Below, piece by piece: positions 3,659-22,625 of a DNA stretch of 40,460 bases. The position numbers and the translations under genes are program-made. Numbering within the stretch: position 1 is the stretch's first letter; each line of letters opens with the position of its first letter. The DNA is taken from NCBI GenBank assembly GCA_016218705.1, contig JACRDC010000030.1:1-40460 (forward strand), in the 5' to 3' direction. The notes beneath the pieces were generated by a model. The model did not search any database. It had not been told where the DNA came from and was given only the letters and a program-made list of their open reading frames with translations. This DNA comes from Desulfarculus sp. (GTDB lineage: Bacteria; Desulfobacterota; Desulfarculia; Desulfarculales; Desulfarculaceae).

Positions 3659-3685
3659 GAAAACCTGCCCCCCACCGAGGTGCCC

Positions 3686-4266: not shown

Positions 4267-5289
4267 TTAGCGGTCGAACTCGCTGAGCACGTCCTTGTAC
4301 CAGTCCTGCTTGTCCTTGAGTTGGCTCAAGAGCTGGTTCTTCTCCAGGGCCATGCCCGCCTGATGGGCGATGAAGTCCATCCACAGCAGGTCGTCCTGGT
4401 CGGGCTCGAACTCAAAGGGATAGTAGAGGCGCAAGGCCCCGGCCAGGTTCTCACCCACCCACACCGGCAGGCCGATAATGGCCTGCACGTTCTCGGCGGC
4501 GGCCTCCGACTTGTATTGCACGCGAGGGTCGTTGGCCACGCTGCTGATCACCACCGGCTGGCCGGTGTTGATCTCGCCCAGGCTCAGGCCCACCGACACC
4601 GGCCCCTTCTTTAGGTAAGCATCGCTCAGGCCCCAACTGGTGACGCTGCCCAGGGTCTTCTTGTCGCGGTCGGCCAGGAGCAGGGCGCAACCCAGGGCGT
4701 GGCCGTACTGGCCCGCCGTCCTTACCAGGGTCTGCAAGGCCTCCTTGAGGTTCAAGGAGGGCACGCGGTGAATCTCGGCGGCGCAGGCCTTCATGGAGGA
4801 GAAGTAGAAATTCTTCTTCAGCGCCAGCCCGGCCTGCACGGCATAGGCCTTGAGGTACTCCATCTCCTCGGGGGTGAGGTCCTTGGTCTGGGCGAAGTAC
4901 AGGCGCAAGGAGCCAACCAGCACGCAGCCGGCGGACAGGGGCACGCCCACGATGCTCTTGATGCCCTCTTGGACGGCGGCCTCGCGGTATTGCACGTTGG
5001 GGTCCTGGCTGATGTCGCGCACCACCACCGGCGCCCGGTTGACGGTTTCGCCCAGGCTCTTCTTGGGGCTGATGGCGCCCTTGGCGCGGTAGGCGTCGCT
5101 CAGGCCGAAGCTGGCGGAGATCATTAGGTTTTCTTCGCTGGGGTCGAACAGCATCAGGCTGGCCCCACGGGCGCCGAAAAGGTTGGCCGCGTTGCGCGCC
5201 ACGGCCTCCTCGGTCACCTGCTGGTTGAGTGAGCCGTGGATGTCGGCCAGCGCGTAGAGAAAGCGGTGGAAGAACTCCTGATTGGCCAT
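4267..5289 (-). CDS. Tandem GAF-domain protein
   Basis: A 340-residue soluble protein consisting of two GAF domains (about residues 25-165 and 190-335) joined by a short linker. The halves are internal repeats: SFGLSDAYRAKG matches SWGLSDAYLKKG, and VVVRDISQDPNVQYR matches VVISSVANDPRVQYK. No kinase, cyclase, HTH or other output domain is present, so it would act on a partner protein or as a ligand or redox buffer. GAF domains bind cyclic nucleotides, haem, Fe-S centres or small molecules; the few cysteines include FSSMKACAAEI between the domains, but no cofactor motif is clear. Start ATG 5289 has AAGGAGG about 10 nt upstream. It has its own terminator and is probably monocistronic. Confidence 0.8.
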   Translation of the reverse strand: MANQEFFHRFLYALADIHGSLNQQVTEEAVARNAANLFGARGASLMLFDPSEENLMISASFGLSDAYRAKGAISPKKSLGETVNRAPVVVRDISQDPNVQYREAAVQEGIKSIVGVPLSAGCVLVGSLRLYFAQTKDLTPEEMEYLKAYAVQAGLALKKNFYFSSMKACAAEIHRVPSLNLKEALQTLVRTAGQYGHALGCALLLADRDKKTLGSVTSWGLSDAYLKKGPVSVGLSLGEINTGQPVVISSVANDPRVQYKSEAAAENVQAIIGLPVWVGENLAGALRLYYPFEFEPDQDDLLWMDFIAHQAGMALEKNQLLSQLKDKQDWYKDVLSEFDR

Positions 5290-5709: not shown

Positions 5710-6225
5710 CTACTTGGCCCCGGGTTTGGCCAAAAGAGACATGGCGTAGAGCGCCCTGGTCTTGCGGACGTTCTCGTTGGGCTTGGAGAAGCTCAAGGCA
5801 TGGGTGGTGCAGCCGGCCACGCAGGCCGGCACTTGGCCCGCCTCGATGCGGTCGCGGCAGTAGTCGCACTTGATGATCTTGCCCGTGGTCTCGTCGAAAT
5901 GGGGCACCTTCCAGGGGCAGGCCTGGATGCAGGCCCGGCAGCCCACGCACAGGTCCTTGTCCACGTAGACCAGGCCGTCCTCATCGCGCTTAATCATGGC
6001 CCCGTTGGGGCAGGCGGCCACGCACCAGGGCTCCTCGCAGTGGAAGCAGGGCATGAAGGCCGACACCACCTGGGGCTTGCCCGCCGAGGTAACCACCGGG
6101 CCGGCGCTTATCAGCACGCCCAGCTTGGCCCCCGCCGGCAACCGGTTCTTGATCTGGCAATGCACCTCGCAGGCCTTGCAACTGATGCACCTTTGCGGAT
6201 CGAGCTTGATCATGTATTTGCTCAT
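5710..6225 (-). CDS. DMSO-reductase-type [4Fe-4S] electron-transfer subunit (DmsB/PsrB/NrfC family)
   Basis: A 171-residue polyferredoxin whose cysteine groups match the four-cluster beta subunit of molybdopterin oxidoreductases: CISCKACEVHC (13-23), CFHCEEPWCVAACP, CVGCRACIQACP, and CDYCRDRI followed by CVAGC. No signal peptide, so it is cytoplasmic. It starts 126 nt after the molybdopterin catalytic subunit ends and is its obvious partner, passing electrons from the active site to a downstream acceptor. No membrane anchor of the NrfD/DmsC type follows. It is a paralogue of the ferredoxin at 22149-22625, sharing the MSKY start and all cysteine groups. Confidence 0.85.
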   Translation of the reverse strand: MSKYMIKLDPQRCISCKACEVHCQIKNRLPAGAKLGVLISAGPVVTSAGKPQVVSAFMPCFHCEEPWCVAACPNGAMIKRDEDGLVYVDKDLCVGCRACIQACPWKVPHFDETTGKIIKCDYCRDRIEAGQVPACVAGCTTHALSFSKPNENVRKTRALYAMSLLAKPGAK

Positions 6226-6351
6226 GGCATTTCCCGCGGCTGAAAAAGGCCTGTCTGGCCGGTGTCTGTGACGGCGCTGTCGGCCGGGCCTGCCCTACCT
6301 TGCACACCCCTGGCGGGGTTGGGTTGGCGCGGCCTGTTACGGGCAGCCGGC

Positions 6352-8436
6352 CTAGACCTTGCGCACCTCCACGAATTGCTCTTGCAGGGACAGACCGCCG
6401 CCGGCGCGGTCCCATTTTTCCAGCCCGCCCTCCATGAGCAGGTTGTCGGCCACGCCCTGGCCCTTGGCCCGGGACTCCACCGGCAACTCGCGGCCAAAGC
6501 CGTGCACCATGAAGACCGCCTCGGGGTGGATGAACTCGGTGAGCCTCACCTTGATCTTGCCCGAGTGGGCACCGCTGGCGATCACCACCCGGTCGCCGTC
6601 CTCGATGCCCATGCGCGAGGCCACGGCCTGGTTGAGCCACAATAGGTTCTCGGGCATCTGGGCGTGCAGGCGCGGGTTGTTGACGGTGTGCCCCTGGCTG
6701 TGCAGGCTGCAGCGGCCAATGGTCAGGCGGAAGAAGCCGTTGGGCGGCACCGGCTTGGCGGCGTAGGGACCCATGGAAGGGATGCCCTCGCGGCGCCACT
6801 TCTCGCTGGCCACCTCTATCTTGCCCGAGGGCGTGGCCAGCTTCAGGCCGGCCATGCCGGCGTACAGGGGCTGGTTGGCCAGTTCCACGAAGCCTTTTTC
6901 CTCAAAGGACTCGGGCCGGTAACCAGTGCCCTCCAGTTGATAGTTCCAGATGTCCTCGGGGGTCTGGTAGGCCAGGGCCTTGAGGCCCAGGCGCGCCGCC
7001 AGCCCGGACGCGATCTCCCAGTCAGCCTTGGTGTCGAAGCGCGGCTCCTGGCAGCGCTGGCGCACGAAAAAGCTGGGTTTGAGGCCCCGCTGCAGGGCCA
7101 CGATGCTCTCGCGCTCCAGGTAGCTGGACAGAGGCAGGATGACGTCGGCCTGCCAGGCGGTGGCCGACCAACTGGAGGTCACACACACCAAGAGGTCCAG
7201 GTTGGCGAAGGCCTGTTGCAGCTTGCCGGGCTCGGGGTGGGCGCCCAGGGGGTCGTGCTGCCAGGCGATGTAGGCCTTGAGCGCATAGGGGTCGGCCGTC
7301 TCCATGGCCTGGTAGGCCAGGTGCAAGAGCCCAGGCCCTCCCTCGAACTGGGGGTACTTCCAGCCCACGCCGTCGGCGCGCTTCTCGTCCACGGCCAGGA
7401 ACAGGTCGCTGAGCTTGTTCAGACCCTTGCGCCCCAGGTCCGCGGGGTCGGGCGCCAGGGCCAGGCCGCCCTTGGCCCCGATGGAGCCCAGCAGCGCGTT
7501 GATGAGGAAGGCCGAGCGGCTGACGTAAAAGGAATCGTTGTAGCGCGAGGTCATCCAGCCCGGGTGCCAGATCACCGCCGGCGCCGCGCTCGCCAGGTCC
7601 TCGGCCAGGGCCACGATCTCGGCGGCGGCGATGCCCGTCTCGGCCTCCACCGCCTCGGGGCTGTAGGGCTCCACCAGGTTAATCAGCTCGTCAAAGCCAT
7701 GCACCCAGTCATGCACGAAGGCCTTATTGTAAAGCTCGCGCTTGATGAGCACGTGCATGATGGCCAGGTTGAGGGCGTAGTCGGTGCCGGGGCGGATCAT
7801 CAAAAAGCGGTCGGCCTTGCCCGCCGTGACCGTGGCGCGCACGTCAATCACCGTGAGCTTGCAGCCGCCCTGCAGGCCGTCCATCAGGTCGTTGCACTCG
7901 CGCACGTCAATGGACTCGAAGACGTTGCGGGTCTGCAACACCACGTGCTTGGCGCTCTTGTAGTCGTAGGTCAGCCGCTCCTCGCCGAAGCCGAAAAGCG
8001 ACAGGGCCGCGTGCTGCATGTTGACCGAGCAGGTGGAGTCGTTGCTGCAATAATTGGGGGAGCCCAGGCCGCGTATCAGGGCCTGAGTCAGGTCGGCGAA
8101 GGGACCGCCCCGGTCGGAGAGCAGGATGGCGCGTCCGCCGTGGGCCGAGCGCACGGCCTCCAGTTTCTGGGCCGCATAATCCAGGGCCTCGTCCCAGGTG
8201 GCCTTTTGCCACTTGCCCTCGCCGCGCTCGCCCTTGCGGATCATGGGGAACTGCGGCCGCTCGTCGTCACGCAGCATGGCGATGCCTGAGGCCCCGCGGG
8301 CGCACAGGGCGCCCCTGATGCCGGCGGCCTGCCGGTTGCCCTGGATGAACTGGCAGGCGCCGTTCTCCACATCCACCTGAATCGGGCAGCGCACTGAACA
8401 CATGCCGCAGACGCTGTAGACGACCTTACCGGACAT
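6352..8436 (-). CDS. Molybdopterin oxidoreductase catalytic subunit (PsrA/PhsA-like)
   Basis: A 694-residue DMSO-reductase-superfamily protein. An N-terminal 4Fe-4S motif has C10, C13, C17 and C45 (CGMCSVRC, then GALCARG). The segment GSPNYCSNDSTCSVN (125-139) is the polysulfide/thiosulfate-reductase-like active-site region; C136 is the likely molybdenum ligand. The C-terminal molydopterin-binding domain includes SLHSQGHTVNNPRLHAQMPE and the beta-barrel region GDRVVIASG. It lacks a twin-arginine signal, so unlike most Psr/Phs enzymes it should be cytoplasmic. It follows nuoN by 163 nt on the same strand and precedes its ferredoxin partner. The substrate is not determinable; sulfur-compound reduction, an organic substrate or electron delivery to the adjacent complex I are all possible. 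Confidence 0.85.
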   Translation of the reverse strand: MSGKVVYSVCGMCSVRCPIQVDVENGACQFIQGNRQAAGIRGALCARGASGIAMLRDDERPQFPMIRKGERGEGKWQKATWDEALDYAAQKLEAVRSAHGGRAILLSDRGGPFADLTQALIRGLGSPNYCSNDSTCSVNMQHAALSLFGFGEERLTYDYKSAKHVVLQTRNVFESIDVRECNDLMDGLQGGCKLTVIDVRATVTAGKADRFLMIRPGTDYALNLAIMHVLIKRELYNKAFVHDWVHGFDELINLVEPYSPEAVEAETGIAAAEIVALAEDLASAAPAVIWHPGWMTSRYNDSFYVSRSAFLINALLGSIGAKGGLALAPDPADLGRKGLNKLSDLFLAVDEKRADGVGWKYPQFEGGPGLLHLAYQAMETADPYALKAYIAWQHDPLGAHPEPGKLQQAFANLDLLVCVTSSWSATAWQADVILPLSSYLERESIVALQRGLKPSFFVRQRCQEPRFDTKADWEIASGLAARLGLKALAYQTPEDIWNYQLEGTGYRPESFEEKGFVELANQPLYAGMAGLKLATPSGKIEVASEKWRREGIPSMGPYAAKPVPPNGFFRLTIGRCSLHSQGHTVNNPRLHAQMPENLLWLNQAVASRMGIEDGDRVVIASGAHSGKIKVRLTEFIHPEAVFMVHGFGRELPVESRAKGQGVADNLLMEGGLEKWDRAGGGLSLQEQFVEVRKV

Positions 8437-8543
8437 TACTTCCTCCCCAGCTTGTGCCGGACCCTATGGCAAAACTCTTGGGCATGTCCCCCCTCGCGGG
8501 GTCCGCCGCCTGGATCGTTGCCTAGGCGGCTCTTGCTTTTCCG

Positions 8544-8565
8544 GCCGGGCGCCGTGCGCCCCGGC
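8544..8565. other. Hairpin in the gap between nuoN and the molybdopterin enzyme gene
   Basis: GCCGGGCGC (8544-8552) pairs with GCGCCCCGGC (8556-8565) with one bulged base. On the minus strand it is not followed by a T run, so it is not a typical Rho-independent terminator; it could be a processing or partial-termination site that sets different expression for nuo and the downstream pair. Confidence 0.35.
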
Positions 8566-8599
8566 GGGGGCGGCCCTTGATGGCTTCCTGATAACAACC

Positions 8600-10042
8600 T
8601 TAGGGCATAAGCTGCCTGCCGGCAGCCTCGGCCCATTTGAACACGGGCGTGGGGATGGCCCCCAGAATGAGAATGGCGGCCGCCAACACCCCGCCCCACA
8701 GGGCGCTGTCGGCCCGGGGCTGCACGAACTCACCCTCGGCCTCGCTGGTGTAGGCGTGCCGCACCAGGTTGAGATAGTAGTAGATGGAGATGGCCGTGTT
8801 GACCGCGGCCACGATCACCAGCCAGTCGTAACCCCGGTTCCAGGCCGCGGTGAGCAAGAAAAGCTTGCCCATGAACCCAGCTGTGGGCGGCAGGCCCACC
8901 AGGGAGAAGGCCGCCACCGCCAGCACGAAGGCCAGGAAGGGGGCGCGCTTGTACAGGCCGTTGAGATCGTCCAGTTGCAGGTTGCGGCCGTCGGTGGCCA
9001 GCCGGCAGACCACCCAGAAGCAGCAAAGGTTCATCAGCAGATAGACCAGGCTGTAGAAGCCCGCCGCGGCCAGGCCCTTGGAGGAGGCGGCCACCAGGCC
9101 CAGCATGACGTAGCCGGCGTGGGCCACGCTGGAGTAGCCCAGGATACGCTTGATGTCCTTCTGGGTCAGGGCGGCCAAGTTGCCGAAGGTCATGGAAGCC
9201 GCGCCCAGCACCGCCAGCACCGTGGTGATCTCCAGGCCGGGCTTGAGCATGGCCGCCAGGCGGATGAGTATCACCACCGCGCCCAGCTTGGGCAGGGTGG
9301 CGGCGTAGGCCGCCGTCTCGTTGCTGGTGCCGTCGTAGACGTCCGGGCACCAAAAATGGAAGGGGAACAGGGCCAGCTTGAAGAAGAAGCCCACCATGAA
9401 CAGGCTCAGGCCTCCTATGGCCAGGGGCGCCTCGGCCCAGGACCAAGGCTTGCTGGTGAGCACCGCCAGGTAGCTGGAGTGCTGGGAGGCCAGGATGTAG
9501 GACAGGCCGAACAGGGCGATGGCCGTGGCCGCCGCGCCGAAGAGGATGTACTTGATGCCGGCCTCGGAGGCTCTGGGGTCCTTGCCCCGCAGGGGGATCA
9601 AGGCGTACAGGCTGTAGGAGGAAATCTCCAGGGCCAGGTAGATGGTGATGAGTTCCACCGAGCTGGCCAGGATCATCAGGCCCAGGGCGCTCAGGGACAA
9701 CAGCATGAAATAGTCGGCGCGCTTGGAGGCCTCTAGGGTGGGCTGGTTGGAGGCGTTGAGGGCGGCGATGGCGAAACCCACGGCCACGGCCAGCTTGAAG
9801 AACTGGGACAGGCCGTCAATCTTGTAGGCGTCCCAGAACATCATGCCGCTGTCGCCCAGGCTGAAGGCCGCGGACACGGCCACGGCCACCGCCCCCAACG
9901 GCACCCAGGCGGTCTGGGCGGCCAGGCTGGCCCCGCCCGCGGCCTGCTCCTGCTGGGGCTTGGCCAGGGCCTGCAGGAACAGGACCAGGGTCATGGCCAG
10001 TTGCAAGAATTCCGGGATGAATAGAGCGCTATTAAAATTCAC
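8600..10042 (-). CDS. nuoN: NADH-quinone oxidoreductase subunit N
   Basis: A 480-residue polytopic proton-antiporter-like subunit of complex I. Family-typical segments include VELITIYLALEISSYSLYAL with the key glutamate of TM5, FHFWCPDVYDG, LAALTQKDIKRILGYSSVAHAGY and SLVGLPPTAGFMGKLFLL. Translation appears to start at GTG 10042, preceded by GGAG with 7 nt spacing. It is the last canonical complex I gene here, 20 nt after nuoM, and completes the membrane arm. Confidence 0.93.
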   Translation of the reverse strand: MNFNSALFIPEFLQLAMTLVLFLQALAKPQQEQAAGGASLAAQTAWVPLGAVAVAVSAAFSLGDSGMMFWDAYKIDGLSQFFKLAVAVGFAIAALNASNQPTLEASKRADYFMLLSLSALGLMILASSVELITIYLALEISSYSLYALIPLRGKDPRASEAGIKYILFGAAATAIALFGLSYILASQHSSYLAVLTSKPWSWAEAPLAIGGLSLFMVGFFFKLALFPFHFWCPDVYDGTSNETAAYAATLPKLGAVVILIRLAAMLKPGLEITTVLAVLGAASMTFGNLAALTQKDIKRILGYSSVAHAGYVMLGLVAASSKGLAAAGFYSLVYLLMNLCCFWVVCRLATDGRNLQLDDLNGLYKRAPFLAFVLAVAAFSLVGLPPTAGFMGKLFLLTAAWNRGYDWLVIVAAVNTAISIYYYLNLVRHAYTSEAEGEFVQPRADSALWGGVLAAAILILGAIPTPVFKWAEAAGRQLMP

Positions 10043-10062
10043 AGGAATTCTCCTCTACAAGC

Positions 10063-11616
10063 TCAGCGGGGCAGCTTATGGGCCTGGCCGGCGGCATTGG
10101 TTTCCAGGGCCAGGCTCAAGGGCGTCTCGGGCACGGTGGCGGTGACCGCCACGCCGCTACGGCTGCGGAACTCATCCAATACCCGGTTAAGGGTGGGGTC
10201 AATGGCCCGCAAGGTAAGACCAGGGGCCAGGCCCAGGTAGAAGACCAGGATGGCCAACGGCACGAAGTAGGCCCACTCCCTGGTGTTCAGGTCCTTCCAT
10301 TCCTTGGCCTTGGTGGGCTCGCCCCAGGCCAGCTTCTGGCCCAAGCGCAGCATGTAGGCCGCGCCCAGCATCACGCCGGGAACGATGGCCGCGCCGATCC
10401 AGGGGTTGGACTTGAAGGCGCCGATGAGCACCAGAAGCTCGCCCACGAAGCTGTTGGTGCCCGGGAAGCCCAGGGAGGACAAGGCGAAGAGCCCGAAGAA
10501 GAACATATAGGCCGGCAGGTATTTGCCCAGGCCCAGGTTCTCGCTAATCTCGCGGCTGTGGCTGCGCTCGTAGATGGCGCCCACCAGCATAAACAGGCCG
10601 CCGGTGGTGATGCCGTGGTTGAGCATCACCATGAGCGCGCCCTCGAAGCCCCTGAGCGAGAACAGGAAGATGCCCAGGGTCACGAAGCCCATGTGGGCCA
10701 CCGAGGAGTAGGCGATCAGCTTCTTCATGTCGCGCTGGCCCAGGGCCACGAAGCCGCCATACAGTATGGAAGCGATTGAGATGGCGATCATCATGGGCGC
10801 GAAGTACTGGCTGGCCTGGGGCGTCAGCGGCAGGCAGAAGCGCAGGAAACCGTAGGCCCCCATCTTGAGCAGCACCGAGGCCAGCAAGACCGAGCCGGCC
10901 GTGGGGGCCTCCACGTGGGCCGCCGGCAACCAGGTGTGGAAGGGGAACATGGGCACCTTGATGGCAAAGGCCAGGGCCATGGCCAGGAAGGCCCAGTACT
11001 GGAACTTGAAGGAGTAGGTCTTGGCCGAAAGCTCGGGGATGCTGAAGGTCCCGCCGGCCCAGTAGAAGGCCACCATGGCCACCAGAAGCAGCGTGGAGCC
11101 GGCCAGGGTGTACAAGAAGAACTTGAGCGAGGCGTAGCGCCGGTCAGGCCCGCCCCATACCGCGATCAAGAGGAACATGGGGACCAGCATGGCCTCCCAG
11201 AAGATGTAGAAGAGCACGAAGTCCAGCGCCAGAAAGACGCCGATGCAGGCCGAGGTCATCATCAGGAGGCTGAAGTGGAACTCCTTGACCCGCTTGCTGA
11301 TGTAGGACCAGGAGCAGAGCACGCACAGAGGCAGCAAGAGCGCCGTCAGAAGCACCATCAAGAGGCTGATGCCGTCCATGCCCAGGTAGTAGGAAAGGCC
11401 CCAGTCCTTTACCCATTCGGCCCGTTCCACGAACTGGTAGCCCTGCTGGGTCATGTCGAAGTTGAACAAGGGCAGGCACAGGGCGGCCTCCACCAAACCC
11501 ACCACCAAGGTGAAGAGCCTGATGGTTTTTTCTTCCTTGAGGAAGGGCAGCACCAGACAGCCGGCCACCGGGAAGAAGATCAGGAAGGATAATATGGGCC
11601 AAGTGCTCTGACTCAT
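10063..11616 (-). CDS. nuoM: NADH-quinone oxidoreductase subunit M
   Basis: A 517-residue antiporter-like membrane subunit. It has the NuoM hallmarks LFYIFWEAMLVPMFLLIAVW with the TM5 glutamate, FPFHTWLPAAHVEAPTAGSV with the conserved lysine region nearby, and QRDMKKLIAYSSVAHMGFV. About 14 membrane segments are evident. ATG 11616 is preceded by GGAG 5 nt upstream. It forms one proton channel of the membrane arm together with NuoN and the two further antiporter-type proteins of the operon. Confidence 0.94.
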   Translation of the reverse strand: MSQSTWPILSFLIFFPVAGCLVLPFLKEEKTIRLFTLVVGLVEAALCLPLFNFDMTQQGYQFVERAEWVKDWGLSYYLGMDGISLLMVLLTALLLPLCVLCSWSYISKRVKEFHFSLLMMTSACIGVFLALDFVLFYIFWEAMLVPMFLLIAVWGGPDRRYASLKFFLYTLAGSTLLLVAMVAFYWAGGTFSIPELSAKTYSFKFQYWAFLAMALAFAIKVPMFPFHTWLPAAHVEAPTAGSVLLASVLLKMGAYGFLRFCLPLTPQASQYFAPMMIAISIASILYGGFVALGQRDMKKLIAYSSVAHMGFVTLGIFLFSLRGFEGALMVMLNHGITTGGLFMLVGAIYERSHSREISENLGLGKYLPAYMFFFGLFALSSLGFPGTNSFVGELLVLIGAFKSNPWIGAAIVPGVMLGAAYMLRLGQKLAWGEPTKAKEWKDLNTREWAYFVPLAILVFYLGLAPGLTLRAIDPTLNRVLDEFRSRSGVAVTATVPETPLSLALETNAAGQAHKLPR

Positions 11617-11656
11617 CGTGTCTCCGTCATGACTAGCGGTTGCTGTCCGTTGGCGC

Positions 11657-13420
11657 CTATCTGAGGAACCAGACCAGGCCGAAGATCAAAAGCCCCAGGA
11701 TGGCCGCCGCCGCCAGGTAGTCCTGCAGGCGTCCGGTCTGGGCCAGGGTGGCGCCCTCGCCCACCCGCCGCACGTTGATGGCGGTGCCGTCCACCACGCC
11801 GTCAATGGCCGCCTTGTCGAACCAGGCGCTGCCGCCGGCGATCTTGAGCATGCCCTTCAGGCCCACGCGGGCGTAGAACTCGGTCCACCAGTTGTCCAGC
11901 TTCTCCAGGATGTAGCGGCAGATGACCATGAAGCCCTGGGCCACCAGGCGGTAGAAGTAATCGAAGTCCAGGTTGAGCTTGGCCTCGGGCTTGAGCTTGT
12001 GGCGCAAGAGGTAGAAGCCCAGGCCCGTGAAGCCCAAGAGGAGCAGCGATTGCAGCACGTGCCAGGAGGTGTAGGGCACGTACTCCACGGGGTGGGGCAA
12101 AAGCTTGTAGAGGAACTCGGGCTGGATACCGATGTAGAAGCACAGCAGCCCGCCCATGGCCATGGCGATGTACATGTTGCGGGGCACCGGATTAAGCGGC
12201 ATGCCGGGGTCGGGCTTGCTGAACCAGGCGAAGTAGGGCAGCTTGATGCCCACCGAGAGGAAGGTACCCACCGCGGCGATCTCCATGCCCACCGCCAGCC
12301 AGGTGTGATGGGCCTCGGCCGCGCCGGTGATGGTCATCGTCTTGCTCACGAAGCCCGAGAACAAGGGGAAGCCGGAGATGCTCACGGCCGCGATCATGTA
12401 CCAGAAGAAGGCCCAGGGCAGGCGCTTGAACAGGCCGCCCAGCTCGCTGAGCTTGGCGGTGCCGGCGGCGTAGAGCAGGGTGCCGGCGCCCATGAACAAC
12501 AGGCCCTTGTAGAGGATGTGGGCATAGGCGTGGGCGCAGGCGCCGTCTATGGTCATGGCCGTGCCCACGCCGATGCCGGCCACCATGTACCCCACCTGGG
12601 AGACGATGTGATAGGCCAGGATGCGCCGGGCGTTGTTTTCGATGGTGGCGTAGAAGACGCCGTAGAGGGTCATCAGGGTGCCCATGATGCCCAGGATCTC
12701 GAAGCCCGAGAAGCCGCGCAAGAGCACGTAGACGGCCGTTTTGGTGGTGAAGGCGCTCATGAACACCGCGCCGGTGACCGTGGCCTCGGGATAGGCGTCG
12801 GGCAGCCAGGCGTGCAGGGGAATCACCGCGGCGTTGACGCAGAAGCCCAGCATGATGAGGATGTCGTAGAGATTGACCGCGTGGGGGTTGGCGGCCTCGA
12901 AGGCGAAGGTGCCCAGGGCCTTGTAGCGCAGCAATAGGCCGGCCAGCAGCAAGAGACCGCCCAGGGTGTGGAACAGGAAGTAGCGGATGCCCGCGTTCGT
13001 GGAGGCCGGCACCCGGCGCAGCCACACCAGGAAGGTGGAGGAGACGCTCATCAGCTCCCAGCAGATGAACAGCGTGACGTAGTCGCCGGCGAAGGTGCAG
13101 CCAAAGGCCCCGGCGATGTACATGCAGGCGGCCATGTGCTGCCACTTGTCGTCCACATGCAGGGCGTAGATGAAACCGATCACCGCCTGGATGGCGAACA
13201 CGTGGGCGAAGACCAGGGAGAGCTGGTCCACCCGGCCCACGGTGAGCGTGAGCCCCAGGTATTGCAACTGGGTGTGCACGCCCTGCTGCATGGTCAGCAC
13301 GCTAAGGACGGCCAACAGCGCCGCCACCGGCGGCACCCAACGCCCCAGCTTGCCCGGCAAGGCCCAGACCAAGAGGGCGCTGATAACGAAGAAGATGGTG
13401 GGGTGGACGAATTCGGTCAC
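11657..13420 (-). CDS. NuoL-like antiporter subunit of complex I
   Basis: A 587-residue member of the NuoL/M/N-MrpA/D family in the position normally held by nuoL, directly before nuoM. Core motifs include VTLFICWELMSVSSTFLVW with the TM5 glutamate, IPLHAWLPDAYPEATVTGAV and RRILAYHIVSQVGYM. The first ~470 residues look closer to MrpD-type antiporters than to classical NuoL. The tail, however (WFDKAAIDGVVDG, then LAQTGRLQDYLAAAA and a last membrane segment), matches the usual end of NuoL, which in complex I carries the lateral helix. It probably acts as the distal proton-pumping subunit. A GTG start at 13420 is used, with a weak AAGGG upstream. Whether a full-length lateral helix exists cannot be judged by eye. 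Confidence 0.82.
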   Translation of the reverse strand: MTEFVHPTIFFVISALLVWALPGKLGRWVPPVAALLAVLSVLTMQQGVHTQLQYLGLTLTVGRVDQLSLVFAHVFAIQAVIGFIYALHVDDKWQHMAACMYIAGAFGCTFAGDYVTLFICWELMSVSSTFLVWLRRVPASTNAGIRYFLFHTLGGLLLLAGLLLRYKALGTFAFEAANPHAVNLYDILIMLGFCVNAAVIPLHAWLPDAYPEATVTGAVFMSAFTTKTAVYVLLRGFSGFEILGIMGTLMTLYGVFYATIENNARRILAYHIVSQVGYMVAGIGVGTAMTIDGACAHAYAHILYKGLLFMGAGTLLYAAGTAKLSELGGLFKRLPWAFFWYMIAAVSISGFPLFSGFVSKTMTITGAAEAHHTWLAVGMEIAAVGTFLSVGIKLPYFAWFSKPDPGMPLNPVPRNMYIAMAMGGLLCFYIGIQPEFLYKLLPHPVEYVPYTSWHVLQSLLLLGFTGLGFYLLRHKLKPEAKLNLDFDYFYRLVAQGFMVICRYILEKLDNWWTEFYARVGLKGMLKIAGGSAWFDKAAIDGVVDGTAINVRRVGEGATLAQTGRLQDYLAAAAILGLLIFGLVWFLR

Positions 13421-13450: not shown

Positions 13451-13726
13451 CTAGCCCCGCTTTTCGTAGTAGTCCTCGTCCTTGCCCAGGAAGGTGTGGG
13501 CCGCTCCCTTGGCCAGCTTGCCCAGCACCACCGCCACGATCAGGCCAAACAGCGCCCAAAAACCGGGCAGCTTCTCAAGATCGAAGTGGGGGTGAGGCAC
13601 CTGGATCAGCACATTCAAGAGCACCAGCACGCCCAGGCTGACAAACATCAGCTTCTTGAGCCCCTTGGCGCCTCCCTGCGGGGGCTGCGCCGGCTGGTCG
13701 TGGGTGTGTTCGGGTTCGTGCGACAT
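13451..13726 (-). CDS. Small membrane protein of the complex I operon
   Basis: A 91-residue protein with a His/Pro-rich soluble N-terminus (MSHEPEHTHDQPAQPPQ), two hydrophobic segments (about residues 25-43 and 55-72) and a charged C-terminus (DEDYYEKRG). It lies between the two MrpD/NuoL-like genes with short gaps on each side (15 and 30 nt) and a GGAGG site before ATG 13726. I recognise no named family. Its position suggests an accessory subunit or assembly factor of the antiporter arm. Confidence 0.75.
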   Translation of the reverse strand: MSHEPEHTHDQPAQPPQGGAKGLKKLMFVSLGVLVLLNVLIQVPHPHFDLEKLPGFWALFGLIVAVVLGKLAKGAAHTFLGKDEDYYEKRG

Positions 13727-13741: not shown

Positions 13742-15217
13742 CTAGTGGCCCCTGAAGGCGGTGATGAACTGGAAGAAGGTCTCGGGGTAGAGCCCCAGGA
13801 ACACGCTCATGGCGGCGGTGAAGCACAGGGGCACCACCATGGTCATGGGGGCCTCGGAGAATTTCTCGATGTCCACGCCCGGCGCCGGTTTCTCGAAGAA
13901 GGCCTTGTACACTATGGGCGTGAAGTAGGCCGCGTTGAGTATGGTGCTGGACAACAGGGCGATAAGGAAGATGTACTGGCCGCTGCTCACCGCGCCGTTG
14001 ACCATGTACCATTTGCTGACGAACCCGCACACCGGCGGCACGCCGATCATGGACAGGGAGGCCACGGCGAAGGCCCCGAAGGTCCAGGGCATGCGCCGGC
14101 CCACCCCGTGCAGCAGGCTGATCTTCTTGTGGTGGGTGGCCACGTAGATGGCGCCAGCCGCGAAGAACAGGGTGATCTTGCTGAAGGCGTGGTGGGCGAT
14201 GTGGGCCAGGCCGCCCTGGACGGCCAGGGGCGAGAGCAGGGCCACGCCCAGCACCACGTAGGAGAGCTGGCTGACCGTGGAGTAGGCCAGCCGGGCCTTG
14301 AGGTCGTCCTTGGTCAGCGCGATGCAGGAGGCCACCACGATGGTGACGGCGGCGAAGGCCGCCGTGGCCACGCCCAGGCCCAGGCTATCCATGAGGTTGA
14401 CGCCGAAGCCCGACAAGAGCACCCGGCTGACCGAGAAGACGCCGGCCTTCACCACGGCCACGGCGTGCAACAGGGCCGAGACCGGGGTTGGGGCCACCAT
14501 GGCCGAGGGCAGCCAGTTGTGCAGGGGCATGATGGCGGCCTTGGCCAGGCCGGCCACGTACAGGGCGTAGGTGATCTGCACCAGCAGAGGGTTGGCGTCG
14601 GCCGGGAACATACCCTTGACCATGTCGCCCAGGTGGAAGTCCAGGGTGCCGCAGAGCACGTAGGTCAGGATCATGGCCGGCAGAAGGAACAGCTTGGAGG
14701 TGCCCATGAGGTAGACCAGATACTTGCGCGCCCCGTGGTAGGCCTCCTCGTCCTGGTGGTGGGCCACCAGGGGGTAGGTAAAGACGGTGATGACCTCGTA
14801 GAAGAAGTAGAGGGTGAAGATGTTGCCGCTCATGGCCACGCCCACGGCGCCGAAGATGGCCACCGCGAAGCAGAAGTAGTAGCGGGTCTGGGCGTGCTCC
14901 TTGAGGGAGCGCATGTAGCCGATGTTGTAGAAAGTGGCCAGCATCCACAGGAAGGAGGCCACGATGGCGAAGATCAGCGTAAGGCCGTCCACCACCAGCT
15001 TGATGGTGATGCCCGGCAGAATGGTGAACAGCGTGTAGTGCAGGATATGGCCGTCCAGCACCGGCGGCACGAAGCTCAAGACGATGGCGAAGGTGATGGC
15101 CCCCGCCACTAGGGAGATGCCTTCGCGCACGTTGATGTTTTCGCGAAACAGCCAGATGGCCAGCGGGGCCAGACCCGTGATCAGGATAGGCCAGATGAGC
15201 GCGGTGGTTTCGATCAT
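13742..15217 (-). CDS. MrpD-like proton/cation antiporter subunit (extra antiporter of complex I)
   Basis: A 491-residue antiporter-family protein inserted between nuoK and the NuoL-like gene. Seen: IFTLYFFYEVITVFTYPLV with the TM5 glutamate, MPLHNWLPSAMVAPTPVSAL with the adjacent VAVVKAG lysine, and KDDLKARLAYSTVSQLSYV. Sequence style is that of Mrp antiporter subunit D rather than NuoM or NuoN. It starts 6 nt after the nuoK stop, so it is part of the operon. In Mrp complexes such subunits translocate H+ or Na+; here it would be a fourth ion channel or a docking piece of the membrane arm. The coupling ion cannot be told. Confidence 0.85.
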   Translation of the reverse strand: MIETTALIWPILITGLAPLAIWLFRENINVREGISLVAGAITFAIVLSFVPPVLDGHILHYTLFTILPGITIKLVVDGLTLIFAIVASFLWMLATFYNIGYMRSLKEHAQTRYYFCFAVAIFGAVGVAMSGNIFTLYFFYEVITVFTYPLVAHHQDEEAYHGARKYLVYLMGTSKLFLLPAMILTYVLCGTLDFHLGDMVKGMFPADANPLLVQITYALYVAGLAKAAIMPLHNWLPSAMVAPTPVSALLHAVAVVKAGVFSVSRVLLSGFGVNLMDSLGLGVATAAFAAVTIVVASCIALTKDDLKARLAYSTVSQLSYVVLGVALLSPLAVQGGLAHIAHHAFSKITLFFAAGAIYVATHHKKISLLHGVGRRMPWTFGAFAVASLSMIGVPPVCGFVSKWYMVNGAVSSGQYIFLIALLSSTILNAAYFTPIVYKAFFEKPAPGVDIEKFSEAPMTMVVPLCFTAAMSVFLGLYPETFFQFITAFRGH

Positions 15218-15223: not shown

Positions 15224-15532
15224 CTATCCCCGCAAGGTGGAAATCTTGGCACTGTCGGAGGTGCCGAAGCGCTTGAACACGACCAGGATGATGGCCAGCA
15301 CCAAGGTGGCCTCGGCCGCCGCCAGACCCATGACCAAAAGCGTGCCCACCTGGCCCAGGGCGTCGGAGGCCGGGGTCAGCCGGGCGCTGGCCACCAGGGC
15401 CAGGCCGGCGCCGTTGAGCATCAGCTCCACCGAGATGAGCATGCCCACCAGGGTCTTGCGGATGGTGATGCCATACAGGCCCAGGGCCAGCAGCAATAGG
15501 GCCGCCAGGTGGAACAGCACCAGGGGGTTCAT
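15224..15532 (-). CDS. nuoK: NADH-quinone oxidoreductase subunit K
   Basis: A 102-residue, three-TM subunit of the membrane arm. Contains TLVGMLISVELMLNGAGLAL with the conserved membrane glutamate and AAAEATLVLAIILVVFKR with the second. ATG 15532 lies 8 nt after the nuoJ stop. The frame continues upstream, but that part overlaps nuoJ and is a shadow. Confidence 0.94.
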   Translation of the reverse strand: MNPLVLFHLAALLLLALGLYGITIRKTLVGMLISVELMLNGAGLALVASARLTPASDALGQVGTLLVMGLAAAEATLVLAIILVVFKRFGTSDSAKISTLRG

Positions 15533-15540: not shown

Positions 15541-16074
15541 TCACTTGCCCTTCCTCCTCTCGAAGCCCAGGACCACCGCGCCGGCCATGGCGGCCAGGAG
15601 CACCACCGAGATCAGCTCGAAGGCCAGCACGAAGGGGCCGGTCAGAAATTCGCCCAGTTGCGCCAGGGTGACCTCGGGCTTCAAGGCCAGGGCCGCGGGC
15701 GCCTTCTTGACGATGAGCGTGGCCATGATGATGGCCGGGGTGAGCGCCGCCAGCACCGCCAGCCCGGCCCGCATGCCGATCCACTCCAGCATGTTCTCGG
15801 CGCCGGCCTCGCCCTCGGGCGTCTTGGTGAGCATGATGGCGAAGAAGATCAGCACGCTCACCGCCCCCACGTAGATGAGTATCTGCATGAAGGCCAGGAA
15901 GGGCGCGTTCATCAACAGGAACATGCCCGCCACCCCGAAGAGGGTGAGGATCAGCCCCATCAGGGCCCGCACCAGGCTGGTGGACATCACCGCGGCCAGG
16001 CCGCCGGCGATTATCAGAAGCAGGTACAGGCCATAGCCCACGTAGGCCAGTTGTTGCTGCAAGGCTTCGCCCAT
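15541..16074 (-). CDS. nuoJ: NADH-quinone oxidoreductase subunit J
   Basis: A 177-residue membrane subunit with five hydrophobic stretches. AFMQILIYVGAVSVLIFFAIML is the conserved TM3 region containing the pi-bulge of NuoJ. It lies 14 nt after nuoI and 8 nt before nuoK, in the usual order H-I-J-K. Confidence 0.92.
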   Translation of the reverse strand: MGEALQQQLAYVGYGLYLLLIIAGGLAAVMSTSLVRALMGLILTLFGVAGMFLLMNAPFLAFMQILIYVGAVSVLIFFAIMLTKTPEGEAGAENMLEWIGMRAGLAVLAALTPAIIMATLIVKKAPAALALKPEVTLAQLGEFLTGPFVLAFELISVVLLAAMAGAVVLGFERRKGK

Positions 16075-16088: not shown

Positions 16089-16643
16089 CTAGGCGGCCGC
16101 TTTGCCGCTATTGGTGCCGGCCCGCGACTTCAGGCGCGCCAACAGGTCGAACTCGAAATCCTGGCGGGCCCGGCCCACCAGGTAGGAATCCCGGGAGAAG
16201 GCCAGGGAGCCCACCGGGCAGCCCTGCACGCACAGACCGCAGAGGCTGCAGTAGTTGTAGTTGAGGTGAAAGCCGTCCAGCACCCGCTCGATCTTGTCCG
16301 GGGGCGGGGTCTTGCCGCCCGAGCGGGGCACCGCCACGTCCAGGCCCAAGAGGAGCCGGCGCCGCTGCTCGGGGTTGACCTCCTCGCCCACCATGTGGAA
16401 CTTGAGGCTGATGCAGCCCGAGGGGCAGGTGTCTGCGCAGTAGCCGCACATGATGCAGCGGGGGGTCTGGGGGTCGTTGGCCAGGGGCACCAGGTCAATG
16501 TGGCCCCGGTAGGACCCCAGGTTGGTGACCTCCTTGCGCGGGAAGTGCACGGTGATCTGCGGCTTGCAGAACTCCACGGTGGTGATCTTGAGGCCTACGA
16601 TGAGGCTCCACAGGCTCTTTATGGTCTGACCGATGGTTTTCAT
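16089..16643 (-). CDS. nuoI: NADH-quinone oxidoreductase subunit I
   Basis: A 184-residue ferredoxin-like subunit carrying the two 4Fe-4S clusters N6a and N6b: CIMCGYCADTCPSGC and CSLCGLCVQGCP. The linker between them, with PEQRRRLLLG and KTPPPDKIERV, is longer than in typical NuoI. It starts 2 nt after the nuoH stop at ATG 16643; the upstream open frame is a shadow of nuoH. It passes electrons from the NuoG/F side towards NuoB. Confidence 0.93.
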   Translation of the reverse strand: MKTIGQTIKSLWSLIVGLKITTVEFCKPQITVHFPRKEVTNLGSYRGHIDLVPLANDPQTPRCIMCGYCADTCPSGCISLKFHMVGEEVNPEQRRRLLLGLDVAVPRSGGKTPPPDKIERVLDGFHLNYNYCSLCGLCVQGCPVGSLAFSRDSYLVGRARQDFEFDLLARLKSRAGTNSGKAAA

Positions 16644-16645: not shown

Positions 16646-17623
16646 CTACTTCACCAGTTTCATGACCAGGGCGGTGGCGACCAGATTGGCCAGGCCCAGC
16701 GGTATGAGCCACTTCCAGCAGATGTTCAGGAGTTGGTCGAAGCGCACCCGGGGGAAGGTCCAGCGGAAGAACATCAGGATCAGCACCAGGAAGAAGACCT
16801 TGGCCAAAAACCACCAGATGCCGGGGGCGAAGGGACCGTCGTAGCCGCCCAGGAACAGGGCCGTGGCCACGGCGCAGACCACGATCATGTAGGAGTACTC
16901 GGCCAGGAAGAAGATGCCGAAGCCCATGCCCGAGTACTCGGTGTGGAAGCCGGCGGTCAACTCGCTCTCGGCCTCGGGCAGGTCGAAGGGCGCTCGGTTG
17001 GTCTCGGCCGTGGCCGAGATGAAGTAGATGACAAAGGCCAGGGGCTGCACGAACAGGTTCCAGGAGAGGATGCCCTTCTGCCCTTCCACGATGGTGGAGA
17101 GATTAAGCGAGCCCGCCTGGAAGGCGATGGCCAGCACCGACAGCAGCAAGGGGACCTCGTAGGCCACCGACTGGGCCACTGCCCGGGCCGCGCCCAGAAG
17201 GCCGTACTTGTTGTTGGAGCCCCAGCCGGCCAGGACCAGGGACAGGGCGTTGAGCCCCGAGAAGGCCAGGATCAGCAAAAGGCCCAGGTTCATCTCCATG
17301 CCGGTGGCGATGGGGCCGAAGGGTATGGGCAAAAAGCAGATGGCCACCGGCGCGAAGGAGATGAAGGGCGCCAGCCAGAACAAGAGGGCGTCGGCCCCCA
17401 GGGGCGTGACCAACTGCTTGCCCACCAGCTTCAGCGCGTCGGCCACGGGCTGCAACAGCCCCCTGGGCCCCACCTCGAAGGGGCCTGGGCGGAGCTGGAT
17501 GAAGCCACACACTTTTCTTTCCATGTACACCATCACCAGGCCGTTGAGGCCCAGGAAGGCCAGGATGGCCACCAGGGCGGCCACGGTGTGTCCTAGGGGC
17601 GTGGCAAGCAGTTCGATGATCAT
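16646..17623 (-). CDS. nuoH: NADH-quinone oxidoreductase subunit H
   Basis: A 325-residue, eight-TM subunit forming the quinone chamber entrance. Typical segments are YMERKVCGFIQLRPGP, GGWGSNNKYGLLGAAR-like LAGWGSNNKYGLLGAARA, SATAETNRAPFDLPEAESEL and GFHTEYSGM. Its ATG overlaps the nuoD stop (ATGA, 17620-17623), indicating translational coupling. Confidence 0.95.
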   Translation of the reverse strand: MIIELLATPLGHTVAALVAILAFLGLNGLVMVYMERKVCGFIQLRPGPFEVGPRGLLQPVADALKLVGKQLVTPLGADALLFWLAPFISFAPVAICFLPIPFGPIATGMEMNLGLLLILAFSGLNALSLVLAGWGSNNKYGLLGAARAVAQSVAYEVPLLLSVLAIAFQAGSLNLSTIVEGQKGILSWNLFVQPLAFVIYFISATAETNRAPFDLPEAESELTAGFHTEYSGMGFGIFFLAEYSYMIVVCAVATALFLGGYDGPFAPGIWWFLAKVFFLVLILMFFRWTFPRVRFDQLLNICWKWLIPLGLANLVATALVMKLVK

Positions 17624-18786
17624 CGGTCTATCTCCGGGATGACCAGGTCCAGGCTGCCCATGATGGAGATGGCGTCAGCCAAGAGCGTGCCCTGGGCCAG
17701 TTCCGCGAACACGTGCAGGTTGGAGAAGCTGGGCGAGCGCAGTTTGAGGCGATAGGGCTTGGCGGTGCCGTCGCTGAGGATGTAGACGCCGATCTTGCCC
17801 CGGGCGCCCTCCACCGCGAAGTAGACCTCGCCCTTTTCGGGGATGAAGCGCTCCGGCAGGTCGGGGCTGACATGAGGGCCAGCCGGCAGGGCGTCCAGGG
17901 CCTGCTCGATGATTCGCACGCTCTGGACCATCTCCGCCATGCGCACGTCGTAGCGGTCCATGGCGTCGCCGTTCTTGCCCACCGGCACATCGAACTCCAG
18001 TTGGTCGTAGACCGAGTAGGGTTCGAAACGCCGCGTGTCGTAGGCCACGCCGGAGCCCCTGAGCACCGGCCCGGTGGCCCCGTAGCGCCGGCACATCTCC
18101 ACGGGCAGCACGCCGATATCCTCGCAGCGCCCCCTTAGGATCACGTTGCCCGTGACCAGGCCGTGGTATATGGGCAGCCGCGTCTTGAAGTGCTGCAAAA
18201 ACTCGCGGGTCTCCTTGATGAAGTCGTCGTCAATGTCGGCCGAGACCCCGCCGAAGCGGTAGTAGCAGTAGGTCAGGCGCGCGCCGGTGACCCTCTGCAG
18301 GATGTCCATGATGCGCTCGCGGTCGGCGAAGGCGTAGAAGATGGGGGTGATGCCGCCCAGGTCCAGGATGTAGGCCCCCCACCACAAGAGGTGCGAGGAG
18401 ATGCGGTTGAGCTCGCAGGTGATCGTCCGGATGTACTCGGCCCGGGGCGGCACCTTGATGCCCATGAGCTTTTCCACCGCGCCCACGTAGGCCCAGTTCC
18501 AGGCCAGGGCGTGCAGGTAGTCCACCCGCCCCATGTTGGGCAGGTACTGCAGGTAGGTCTTCACCTCGCCCATTTTTTCGTGCATGCGGTGGATGTAGCC
18601 CAGTACCGGCTCGGAGCGGCGGATGTACTCGCCGTCCATCTCCACCACCACCCGCAGCACGCCGTGGGTGGAGGGGTGCTGGGGCCCCAGGTTGAGGATG
18701 AGCGTGTCGCCCTCGCTCGTGGGGTCCGGGGTAAAGTGGGTGGTGTAGTAGTCACCCACCAGCTTGGACATGGCGTCATGCGGCAT
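17620..18786 (-). CDS. nuoD: NADH-quinone oxidoreductase subunit D (49-kDa)
   Basis: A 388-residue subunit forming, with NuoB, the quinone-binding cavity. Contains LNLGPQHPSTHGVLRVVVEM with the quinone-binding histidine loop, EYIRRSEPVLGYIHRMHEK, and a C-terminus LVIPEIDR. The family derives from NiFe hydrogenase large subunits but has lost the metal cysteines, as seen here. It starts 3 nt after the short nuoG and is not adjacent to nuoC, so the canonical A-B-C-D order is interrupted by the ferredoxin, E, F and G genes. Confidence 0.95.
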   Translation of the reverse strand: MPHDAMSKLVGDYYTTHFTPDPTSEGDTLILNLGPQHPSTHGVLRVVVEMDGEYIRRSEPVLGYIHRMHEKMGEVKTYLQYLPNMGRVDYLHALAWNWAYVGAVEKLMGIKVPPRAEYIRTITCELNRISSHLLWWGAYILDLGGITPIFYAFADRERIMDILQRVTGARLTYCYYRFGGVSADIDDDFIKETREFLQHFKTRLPIYHGLVTGNVILRGRCEDIGVLPVEMCRRYGATGPVLRGSGVAYDTRRFEPYSVYDQLEFDVPVGKNGDAMDRYDVRMAEMVQSVRIIEQALDALPAGPHVSPDLPERFIPEKGEVYFAVEGARGKIGVYILSDGTAKPYRLKLRSPSFSNLHVFAELAQGTLLADAISIMGSLDLVIPEIDR

Positions 18787-18789: not shown

Positions 18790-19593
18790 CTAAACTTCCT
18801 CAACCGTCTCGTGGGGTGCGAGCTCGTATTGTTCGAAGTGTCTCTGGGCCATGCGGATGGCCAGATTGTGCCGGGAGCATTCGGGACAGACGCTCTGGTT
18901 GGGCGGTGGGACCTTTTCCTCGCCCAGGTTGGCCATGACCTGGCTCAGGCTGATGACCGGACCGAAGAACTTGCCGCAACTGGTGCACTTGTTGAGCGGG
19001 ATGCGCGAGGCCTCCTGGCCGCGCACGATCACCCGGCGGAAGCCGTCCTCGTCCACGACCTGGATTTTGTTCACCGGGCAGATCTGGGCGCAAGCCCCGC
19101 AGCCGATGCACAGCTCCGAGGGACGGCCGAAGGCGGTGTCCACGTGGATCTCCACGCCGCGGCCGCTCAAGGTGAGCGTGCGTCCGCCCACCCGCTCGCA
19201 GACCCGGGCGCACAGGCCGCACATCACGCAGTCCTGGTTGGACTCCGGGAAACGCTTAAGGTTGGCGCCGTATTCGGCGGCCAGTTCCTGGAGCTTGACC
19301 GAGTCGGGACAGCGGGGGGCCAACAGCTCGATAAGAAGCCGGCGGCCATTGCGCAGGGCATCGGTGTCGGTCTGAATCTCGGCGTCGCGGCGCAGGGGAT
19401 AGTTGCAGGAGGTCACCAGCTTGGTGCGGCGGCCCTCGGTCAACTCCACGGTGCACAGCCGGCACATGGCCGCCGCGTCCAGGGCGGGAACGTAGCACAG
19501 AGTCGGAATGTTCACGCCGTTGGCCCGCGCGACCTCCAGGATGGTCTGCCCCTCCTTGGCCGCGACCTCTTTTCCGTTAAGCACTATCTTCAT
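18790..19593 (-). CDS. nuoG: Short NuoG-like iron-sulfur subunit lacking the molybdopterin-fold domain
   Basis: A 267-residue protein corresponding only to the N-terminal part of NuoG (or HoxU / the N-terminus of HndD). A 2Fe-2S ferredoxin domain has C33, C44, C47 and C63. Two 4Fe-4S motifs follow: CVMCGLCARVC (122-132) and CIGCGACAQIC (162-172). A C-terminal CTSC (203-206) / CPEC (236-239) pair could bind zinc or another cluster; it is not part of ordinary NuoG. Start ATG 19593 has AAGGA 7 nt upstream; the frame stays open further upstream, where it runs back past the nuoF stop. The large C-terminal molybdopterin-oxidoreductase-like domain of NuoG is missing, and nuoD follows after 3 nt, so this is a short subunit rather than a broken gene. 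Confidence 0.88.
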   Translation of the reverse strand: MKIVLNGKEVAAKEGQTILEVARANGVNIPTLCYVPALDAAAMCRLCTVELTEGRRTKLVTSCNYPLRRDAEIQTDTDALRNGRRLLIELLAPRCPDSVKLQELAAEYGANLKRFPESNQDCVMCGLCARVCERVGGRTLTLSGRGVEIHVDTAFGRPSELCIGCGACAQICPVNKIQVVDEDGFRRVIVRGQEASRIPLNKCTSCGKFFGPVISLSQVMANLGEEKVPPPNQSVCPECSRHNLAIRMAQRHFEQYELAPHETVEEV

Positions 19594-21554: not shown

Positions 21555-22052
21555 CTACTGGGCGTTCAGACCATCCAGGAATTCGTTTACGGTTTTGATG
21601 TCGGCCTTGGGGTAGTACTTCTCGTCCATGACCACCACCGGCGCCACGGCGCAGGCTCCCACGCAGTTGACCGTCTCCAGGGTCAGGAGCATGTCCTCGC
21701 TGGTCTTGCCCGGCTCCATGCCCTTGCGCTCGCAGATGTGCTCCACCATGCGGTAGCTGCCCTTGAGGTGGCAGGCGGTGCCGGTGCAGACCTGCACGAT
21801 GTGCTTGCCCTTGGGCTCCAGGCTGAAGGAGGCGTAGAAGGTGGCCACTTCGTATATCTTGGTCAGCGGCACGCCGATGGTTTGCGACAGGTACTTGAGC
21901 GCCGGCTCCGGCAGGAAGCGGTAGTTGTGCTGGATGGCCTGCATCATCATGATCATGGCCTCGCGGTTGCCGCCGAAGTCGTCGTTGATGATCCGGTCCA
22001 GGAGCATGTAGTCCACCTCGATCTCCTGGCAAATCACTTCGGTCCCGGACAT
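21555..22052 (-). CDS. nuoE: NADH dehydrogenase 24-kDa subunit (2Fe-2S, thioredoxin-like)
   Basis: A 165-residue subunit binding cluster N1a. The ligand motifs are VCTGTACHLKGS and VNCVGACAVAPVVV. Conserved YEVATFYASF is also present. ATG 22052 is preceded by AGGAGG with 5 nt spacing; the upstream open frame has no support. It ends 12 nt before nuoF and would pair with it as the NADH-oxidising module. Confidence 0.93.
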   Translation of the reverse strand: MSGTEVICQEIEVDYMLLDRIINDDFGGNREAMIMMMQAIQHNYRFLPEPALKYLSQTIGVPLTKIYEVATFYASFSLEPKGKHIVQVCTGTACHLKGSYRMVEHICERKGMEPGKTSEDMLLTLETVNCVGACAVAPVVVMDEKYYPKADIKTVNEFLDGLNAQ

Positions 22053-22148
22053 TAATTCCTCCTTGCTCCAAAACCTCGCGGCCCAAAACCCCCGGCGACA
22101 CCCGGCGGGAGCCAACAACGAAGCCGCCGCCCCCAAGGGGACGGCGCG

Positions 22149-22625
22149 CTACTTGCCAGCCGCCTCGGCCTGGGCCTCGTCCATCTCGTTGAAGCTCAGG
22201 CAGCCGGTGGTGCAGACCGTCACGCAGACCGGTTTGAGCCCCTGGTCAACGCGGTCCTTGCAGAAATCGCACTTGACGACCTTTTCGGTCTCGGCGTTCC
22301 ACTGCACGGCCCCCCAGGGACAGGCCACCATGCAGGCCTTGCAGCCCACGCACAGCTCCGGGTCCACGCTGACGATGCCGTCGCCCTCGCGCTTCTGCAT
22401 GGCCCCGGTGGGGCAGGCCGCCACGCAGACCGGGTTCTGGCAGTGGAAGCAGCCCAGGTAGACATAGGCCTCCCGGGGCACGCCGGCCACCTTGCGCTTG
22501 CTGAGCATGACGATCTGGCAAAGCCTGGGTCCCTCGGGCAACTGCTTGTTCTGCTTGCAGTAGATCTCGCAGCTCAAGCACCCGATGCAGCGGTCTTTGT
22601 CCTGGGTTATGTAGTACTTGCTCAT
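22149..22625 (-). CDS. DMSO-reductase-type polyferredoxin inside the nuo operon
   Basis: A 158-residue four-cluster ferredoxin of the DmsB/NrfC type: CIGCLSCEIYC (13-23), CFHCQNPVCVAACP, CVGCKACMVACP, and CDFCKDRV followed by CVTVC. ATG 22625 has AAGGAG 6 nt upstream; the frame is open for 500 bases further but only as a shadow of nuoC. It lies between nuoC and nuoE, an unusual place for such a subunit, and is a paralogue of the ferredoxin at 5710-6225. It may link the complex I peripheral arm to ferredoxin or to the molybdopterin enzyme encoded at the end of the cluster; this is inference. Confidence 0.88.
   Translation of the reverse strand: MSKYYITQDKDRCIGCLSCEIYCKQNKQLPEGPRLCQIVMLSKRKVAGVPREAYVYLGCFHCQNPVCVAACPTGAMQKREGDGIVSVDPELCVGCKACMVACPWGAVQWNAETEKVVKCDFCKDRVDQGLKPVCVTVCTTGCLSFNEMDEAQAEAAGK

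Follow-up and report, generated by a model that had tools for sequence, protein, structure and literature searches.

What does a cytoplasmic molybdopterin-type protein with a ferredoxin partner do directly behind a gene cluster for complex I? The question is raised by a stretch of 40,460 nucleotides from Desulfarculus sp. (contig JACRDC010000030.1; here called the window), in which the genes of such a pair, MoA and FeSB, follow nuoN in the same direction (Table 1). An earlier note on this DNA had suggested that the pair could be a soluble enzyme, dehydrogenase or reductase, that feeds complex I or drains it. Our analysis gives somewhat better than an even chance to another reading, drawn from sequence comparison: MoA-FeSB would be an accessory module of a Nuo-Bfu complex I that is undergoing a loss of catalysis like that of NuoG.

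MoA matches the PsrA chain from Thermus (PDB 2vpw) by sequence, and its AF2 model, which is confident (pLDDT 91.4), is also closest to this chain (VIA Z 41.5, rmsd 2.2, 677 aligned), the structural runner-up being ArrA (Z 34.7). Against the PhsA model PRK15488 it scores 463 bits, which is below the NCBIfam equivalog cut-off of 694 bits. The protein begins with MSGKVVYSVCGMC, the FS0 motif standing right at its start and leaving no space for a Tat signal, and C136 aligns with the metal-ligand region of PsrA. FeSB has 16 cysteines arranged as four cluster motifs. No gene for a NrfD/PsrC membrane anchor follows FeSB; the tandem-GAF gene stands there instead. The earlier note had thus described the pair correctly: both open reading frames are exact, the catalytic subunit resembles PsrA/PhsA and has no export signal, and a ferredoxin but no anchor gene comes after it. 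Of the traits of PsrA/PhsA (CISM) enzymes the window MoA has the PsrA fold, the FS0 cysteine motif and the cysteine metal ligand, and it lacks the Tat-exported catalytic subunit with a PsrC/NrfD anchor. With respect to the sister species, dN/dS is 0.14 for MoA, 0.15 for FeSB and 0.11 for NuoN; this purifying selection between two sister species indicates that the MoA gene is maintained.

The tandem-GAF protein has a paralog (57%) at L202:4549-5562, near the second complex I cluster of the genome (G000:C117), and weakly similar GAF proteins come after MoA-FeS at three other loci (L114, L253, L259). Farther to the left are a phenylacetate-CoA-ligase-like gene in convergent orientation with an ACT-domain gene after it (2084-4189), a methylenetetrahydrofolate-reductase-like gene (936-1811) and beside it, at the edge, a GltD-like fragment (2-418).

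Table 1. Position of MoA, FeSB and the adjoining genes in the window.
Feature	Position	Strand	Remark
Tandem-GAF protein	4267..5289	-	next gene downstream of FeSB
FeSB, DmsB/PsrB/HycB-like ferredoxin, 171 aa, four [4Fe-4S] motifs	5710..6225	-	partner of MoA
MoA, cytoplasmic PsrA/PhsA-fold molybdopterin-type subunit, 694 aa	6352..8436	-	ORF, profile and structure matches
nuoN-MoA spacer, 163 bp	8437..8599	-	96.9% identical to sister species
nuoN	8600..10042	-	
nuoM	10063..11616	-	
ND5/NuoL-like antiporter subunit	11657..13420	-	
Small conserved ORF	13451..13726	-	hydrophobic stretches (judged by eye)
MrpD-like antiporter subunit	13742..15217	-	
nuoK	15224..15532	-	
nuoJ	15541..16074	-	
nuoI	16089..16643	-	
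nuoH	16646..17623	-	
nuoD	17620..18786	-	
nuoG/bfuA, short (~267 aa)	18790..19593	-	without molybdopterin domain
nuoF/bfuB	19638..21542	-	Trx-like 2Fe-2S and C-terminal 2x[4Fe-4S]
nuoE/bfuC	21555..22136	-	
FeS22, second DmsB-like ferredoxin	22149..22625	-	within nuo cluster, between nuoC and nuoE
nuoC, putative	22715..23209	-	reading frame
nuoB	23209..23712	-	
nuoA, putative	23715..24095	-	reading frame

The nuo cluster upstream of MoA is, to judge from its predicted subunits, a Nuo-Bfu complex I, an unusual ferredoxin/NADH type that would use NADH and reduced ferredoxin simultaneously. NuoF has the architecture of BfuB, with an FMN/51K domain between the Trx-like N-terminus and the C-terminal clusters, and NuoG is of the BfuA type without catalytic domain, the Bfu-type genes lying mid-cluster among the nuo genes. 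That NuoG lacks the molybdopterin-like domain had been seen rightly in the earlier note; it is a known trait and not specific to this locus, since a Nuo-Bfu variant of complex I with 14 subunits has been described (Schut et al., 2022; PMC9304861). Overlooked were FeS22 inside the cluster, and the four antiporter-like subunits (NuoN, NuoM, ND5-like and MrpD-like; 8600-15217), which are one pump-type subunit more than in canonical complex I. These four are kept together with the small ORF also at three other loci (L313, L331, L333). FeS22 of the window is nearest to the FeS22 proteins of other Nuo-Bfu clusters; most of its further relatives are MoA partners.

The order nuoB-C-FeS22-E-F-G-D-H...N-MoA-FeSB-GAF, as read in largely draft genomes by similarity to the window proteins, recurs not only in the sister species but also in two further families. 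It is identical in the sister species (G054); in G307, from another family, it is nuoB-FeS22-E-F-G-D-H-I-J-K-MrpD-ND5-M-N-MoA-FeSB-GAF, and G553 and G578, from a third family, are arranged like G307. The gap between nuoN and MoA is 21 bp in G553, 30 bp in G578 and 118 bp in G307, and the GAF gene follows FeSB in all of these genomes and in G058. In G525 and G558, MoA lies co-directionally ~0.5-0.7 kb upstream of nuoB. The FeS22-type nuo clusters of G346 and G554 have no adjoining MoA, from which it follows that the linkage is recurrent, not universal. In G057 the MoA gene set and the nuo cluster lie on separate contigs; it should be noted that the contigs of G057 and G615 stop too early. The earlier note had asked for a comparison of gene orders and had held that an absence of conserved linkage in relatives would speak against a common machine; the linkage recurs in other families, so this objection falls away. 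No report of a MoA-nuo linkage was found in the open-licence literature.

Three candidates for the spacer between nuoN and MoA were dropped: a Moco or other riboswitch because there is no Rfam match at gathering or at E ≤ 5 and the fold is ordinary (z −0.57), a repeat element because the spacer is single copy in the genome, and an intrinsic terminator for the nuo direction because the T-run of the hairpin is on the opposite strand. A scan for a sigma-70-like promoter in the spacer, which is a weak test, found none.

Cytoplasmic homologs of MoA (cut-off E ≤ 1e-150) are present in 100 of the 395 Desulfobacterota genomes sampled. By neighbourhood they fall into several types: MoA stands beside FeS and a nuoABCDHIJKLMN set lacking NuoEFG, beside FeS and a NuoF/GltD-like flavoprotein, beside FeS and BfuC-BfuB, beside FeS by itself, or beside none of these. 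In 25 of the 100 genomes MoA is at most 12 kb from nuoD, the expectation being ~1.3 by a simple uniform-placement estimate in which relatedness is ignored, and on the family tree at least seven changes of the nuo-linked label are needed. The nuo-linked MoA often belongs to a tight MoA-FeS-nuoABCDHIJKLMN operon without NuoEFG. For example, in Desulfobulbus rhabdoformis (L237) MoA, FeS and nuoA, B, C, D, H, I, J, K, L and M follow each other with several overlaps and with gaps that do not exceed ~55 bp; ten genes were confirmed by Pfam, and nuoN comes next, by similarity. As for other neighbours, 47 of the 123 MoA genes have a TauE/SafE-family gene no more than 7 kb away, most often upstream (L104, L231, L249 and others), which suggests sulfur-compound metabolism in the wider family, and none was found near the window MoA. 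FmdE-MoCF fusion proteins, possibly cofactor-related, are near 11/123 (L089, L208, L212, L224). A tungsten enzyme or an aldehyde substrate was rejected from the neighbours: TupA (3/123) and ALDH (7/123) occur only at loci of "orphan" MoA and not in the window.

As reference for the active site served 100 positions whose conservation among 120 background MoA sequences is 95% or more. The window MoA departs from them at six (A50S, F120L, H132N, F254L, W262A, R393Q) and retains the other 94, and R152E is an additional substitution where conservation is a little lower. R109, C136, H637 and H645 are retained as well. Besides the ligand cysteine C136 it has also kept the FS0 cysteines C10, C13, C17 and C45; of the family-invariant set it has R109 and C136 and has lost H132 and R393. 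Elsewhere in the family, 120/123 sequences have H132 and 123/123 have C136. In our trees, which were made by quick methods and in which the G307 sequence is on a long branch, the window MoA forms a clade with those from G057, G346, G307, G553 and G578 (n = 6; SH-aLRT 99, and 97 for the inner set with the window), whose members come from genomes with FeS22-type Nuo-Bfu. Within this clade H132 is lost in all six members, R393 in five (in one alignment G307 has Arg there), R109 in five (all except the window) and C136 in three, where Leu (G578), His (G553) or Phe (G307) replaces it; H645, too, is lost within the clade and retained by the window. The four FS0 cysteines are kept in 6/6 members, and the 16 cluster cysteines of FeSB in all three newly found relatives. 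The reading of the earlier note is borne out in part. A functional belonging to complex I is upheld by the recurrent linkage and by a clade tied to FeS22-type Nuo-Bfu genomes; a dehydrogenase or reductase feeding or draining the complex, as it was worded, is not supported in view of the loss of family-invariant residues in the clade and of the ligand cysteine in three members. The same genome has a second MoA (G000:C99, L044), 47% identical and accompanied by FeS, a NuoF-like ORF and a divergent GltD-like gene, which falls outside the eroded clade.

The most economical reading is that selection maintains MoA as a structural or electron-relay protein and not for catalysis. MoA and FeSB, probably together with FeS22 and the GAF protein, would be accessory parts physically associated with the Nuo-Bfu complex I and would descend from a cytoplasmic PhsAB-type enzyme family of the Desulfobacterota. 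In other branches of this family, where complex I has 11 subunits, its electron-transfer module appears to be MoA-FeS in place of NuoEFG. The window branch would have retained the wiring for electrons (FeSB, the FS0 cluster and FeS22) with an eroding catalytic pocket, MoA now being mainly a structural or electron-relay subunit. The residue losses in the clade, including that of the ligand cysteine in three members, favour such a role, though the window copy keeps this cysteine. With C136 and R109 this copy is compatible with an intermediate state, perhaps a late one, or with an altered activity; having H637, H645 and most near-invariant residues as well, it may yet hold Mo or W and be active. 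Moreover, arsenite oxidase has no protein ligand to its metal, and loss of the ligand is therefore no proof of loss of the metal.

Indeed, the main rival, which we consider unlikely and yet far from negligible, is that MoA-FeSB remains catalytically active, its substrate or metal ligation having changed, and that electrons pass between it and Nuo-Bfu at about −400 mV. The likely reaction for the wider family would be the reduction of thiosulfate to sulfite plus sulfide, driven by a reverse complex I that the proton motive force powers, or else by NADH together with ferredoxin via BfuBC. The PsrA-like fold, the C136, FS0 and most of the near-invariant residues kept in the window, the family's partners (complex I, BfuBC-type or NuoF/GltD-like modules) and its frequent TauE/SafE neighbours agree with this; H132, W262 and R393 lost in the window, R109, C136 and H645 lost in the clade, and the window gene's want of a TauE/SafE neighbour disagree. 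Polysulfide, with a potential of about −260 mV, was set aside as the family substrate because thiosulfate suits the low-potential partners better. The reduction of thiosulfate to sulfite and sulfide has a potential of −402 mV and is driven by the proton motive force in Salmonella (as cited in PMC3949148); this potential is too low for menaquinol without such a force. Mutants of D. alaskensis in putative PhsAB are slightly impaired on thiosulfate (PMC4215793), and in Desulfolithobacter dissulfuricans PhsA-1, PhsB-1 and Nuo have consecutive locus tags, two of these Nuo subunits being detected only in thiosulfate disproportionation, when PhsA-1 was somewhat higher (PMC9751629). The link from the PhsAB of both papers to the MoA family is our inference.

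That MoA-FeSB is an independent cytoplasmic PhsAB-type enzyme, standing by chance next to nuo and having its own promoter, is improbable. The 163-bp spacer, which could hold a promoter, exceeds the 20-40 bp gaps that separate the nearest nuo genes, the gene set of G057 is on another contig, and the MoA of many relatives has no nuo alongside; against this stand the gaps of 21-30 bp and the identical order in other families, the FeS22 inside the nuo cluster and the clade tied to FeS22-type Nuo-Bfu genomes. Less probable still is a cytoplasmic formate dehydrogenase feeding complex I in the manner of formate hydrogenlyase. The topology is like that of FdhF-HycB on a complex I-like core, and a cytoplasmic Psr-family protein near an EFG-less nuo in Thermosulfurimonas was named formate dehydrogenase by its authors (PMC4911364). 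However, no His follows the ligand cysteine (C136-S137 in the window, C-A/G-R-N in the family) where formate dehydrogenases have Cys/Sec-His, and the formate dehydrogenase model scores 231 bits versus 463 bits for PhsA.

The redox partner of complex I-like enzymes without NuoEFG is a declared open question (PMC11238625), the partner having been termed "some unknown electron-donating oxidoreductase" (PMC12142623). The MoA-FeS-nuo operons offer a specific candidate, and this in cultured strains such as D. rhabdoformis. If true, the catalytically intact versions of MoA would be a donor to, or a drain on, the 11-subunit complex I, and if they reduce thiosulfate with electrons driven uphill by complex I, this would be the reverse-electron-transport step that thiosulfate disproportionation seemingly needs. 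The window branch would show how a catalytic molybdoenzyme becomes an inert complex I subunit, with intermediates surviving.

Of the known systems, PsrA/PhsA and the cytoplasmic PhsAB of sulfate reducers share with the window the fold, FS0, the Cys ligand and the four-cluster B subunit; the window differs in having no Tat signal, no PsrC/PhsC anchor and active-site residues lost in the clade. With Nuo-Bfu, as far as the accessible part of PMC9304861 describes it, the window has in common the BfuABC-type NuoEFG and the short NuoG embedded in the nuo cluster, and it goes beyond that description in FeS22, the small ORF, the four antiporter-like subunits and the MoA-FeSB-GAF genes that close the cluster on its 3' side. 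The MOLY cluster of sulfur disproportionation has an extracellular MolyAB and a TorD-type chaperone, MolyC (PMC12998232); identity with it was rejected because MoA has no Tat signal and no TorD-type chaperone is among the adjacent ORFs. In formate hydrogenlyase, too, a molybdoenzyme (FdhF) and a four-cluster ferredoxin (HycB) sit on a complex I-like core (Hyc), but the window has NuoD/H of the quinone type instead of a NiFe hydrogenase, and the formate dehydrogenase motif is absent. QrcB and ActB1 are CISM-type subunits of respiratory complexes without molybdenum cofactor; their complexes are of the NrfD type and not complex I, and the QrcB model scores only 145-165 bits. The molybdopterin-like domain of NuoG is catalytically dead in canonical complex I. 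It is a part of complex I derived from a molybdoenzyme and keeps an FS0-like cluster without catalysis, as MoA would on the present reading, and the loss of the metal site in MoA appears to parallel the loss, long ago, of NuoG's own metal centre. MoA differs in being a separate PhsA-type polypeptide, putatively recruited independently, whose erosion is incomplete. It is conceivable, at a little less than an even chance, that a molybdoenzyme was drawn into complex I for a second time, a cytoplasmic PhsA-type enzyme of the Desulfobacterota with its ferredoxin having become an electron-transfer module of complex I-like enzymes, whose metal site is going and whose iron-sulfur wiring is kept in the FeS22-type Nuo-Bfu branch. 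Such a second recruitment would repeat, in separate proteins and with intermediate stages, the presumed origin of NuoG.
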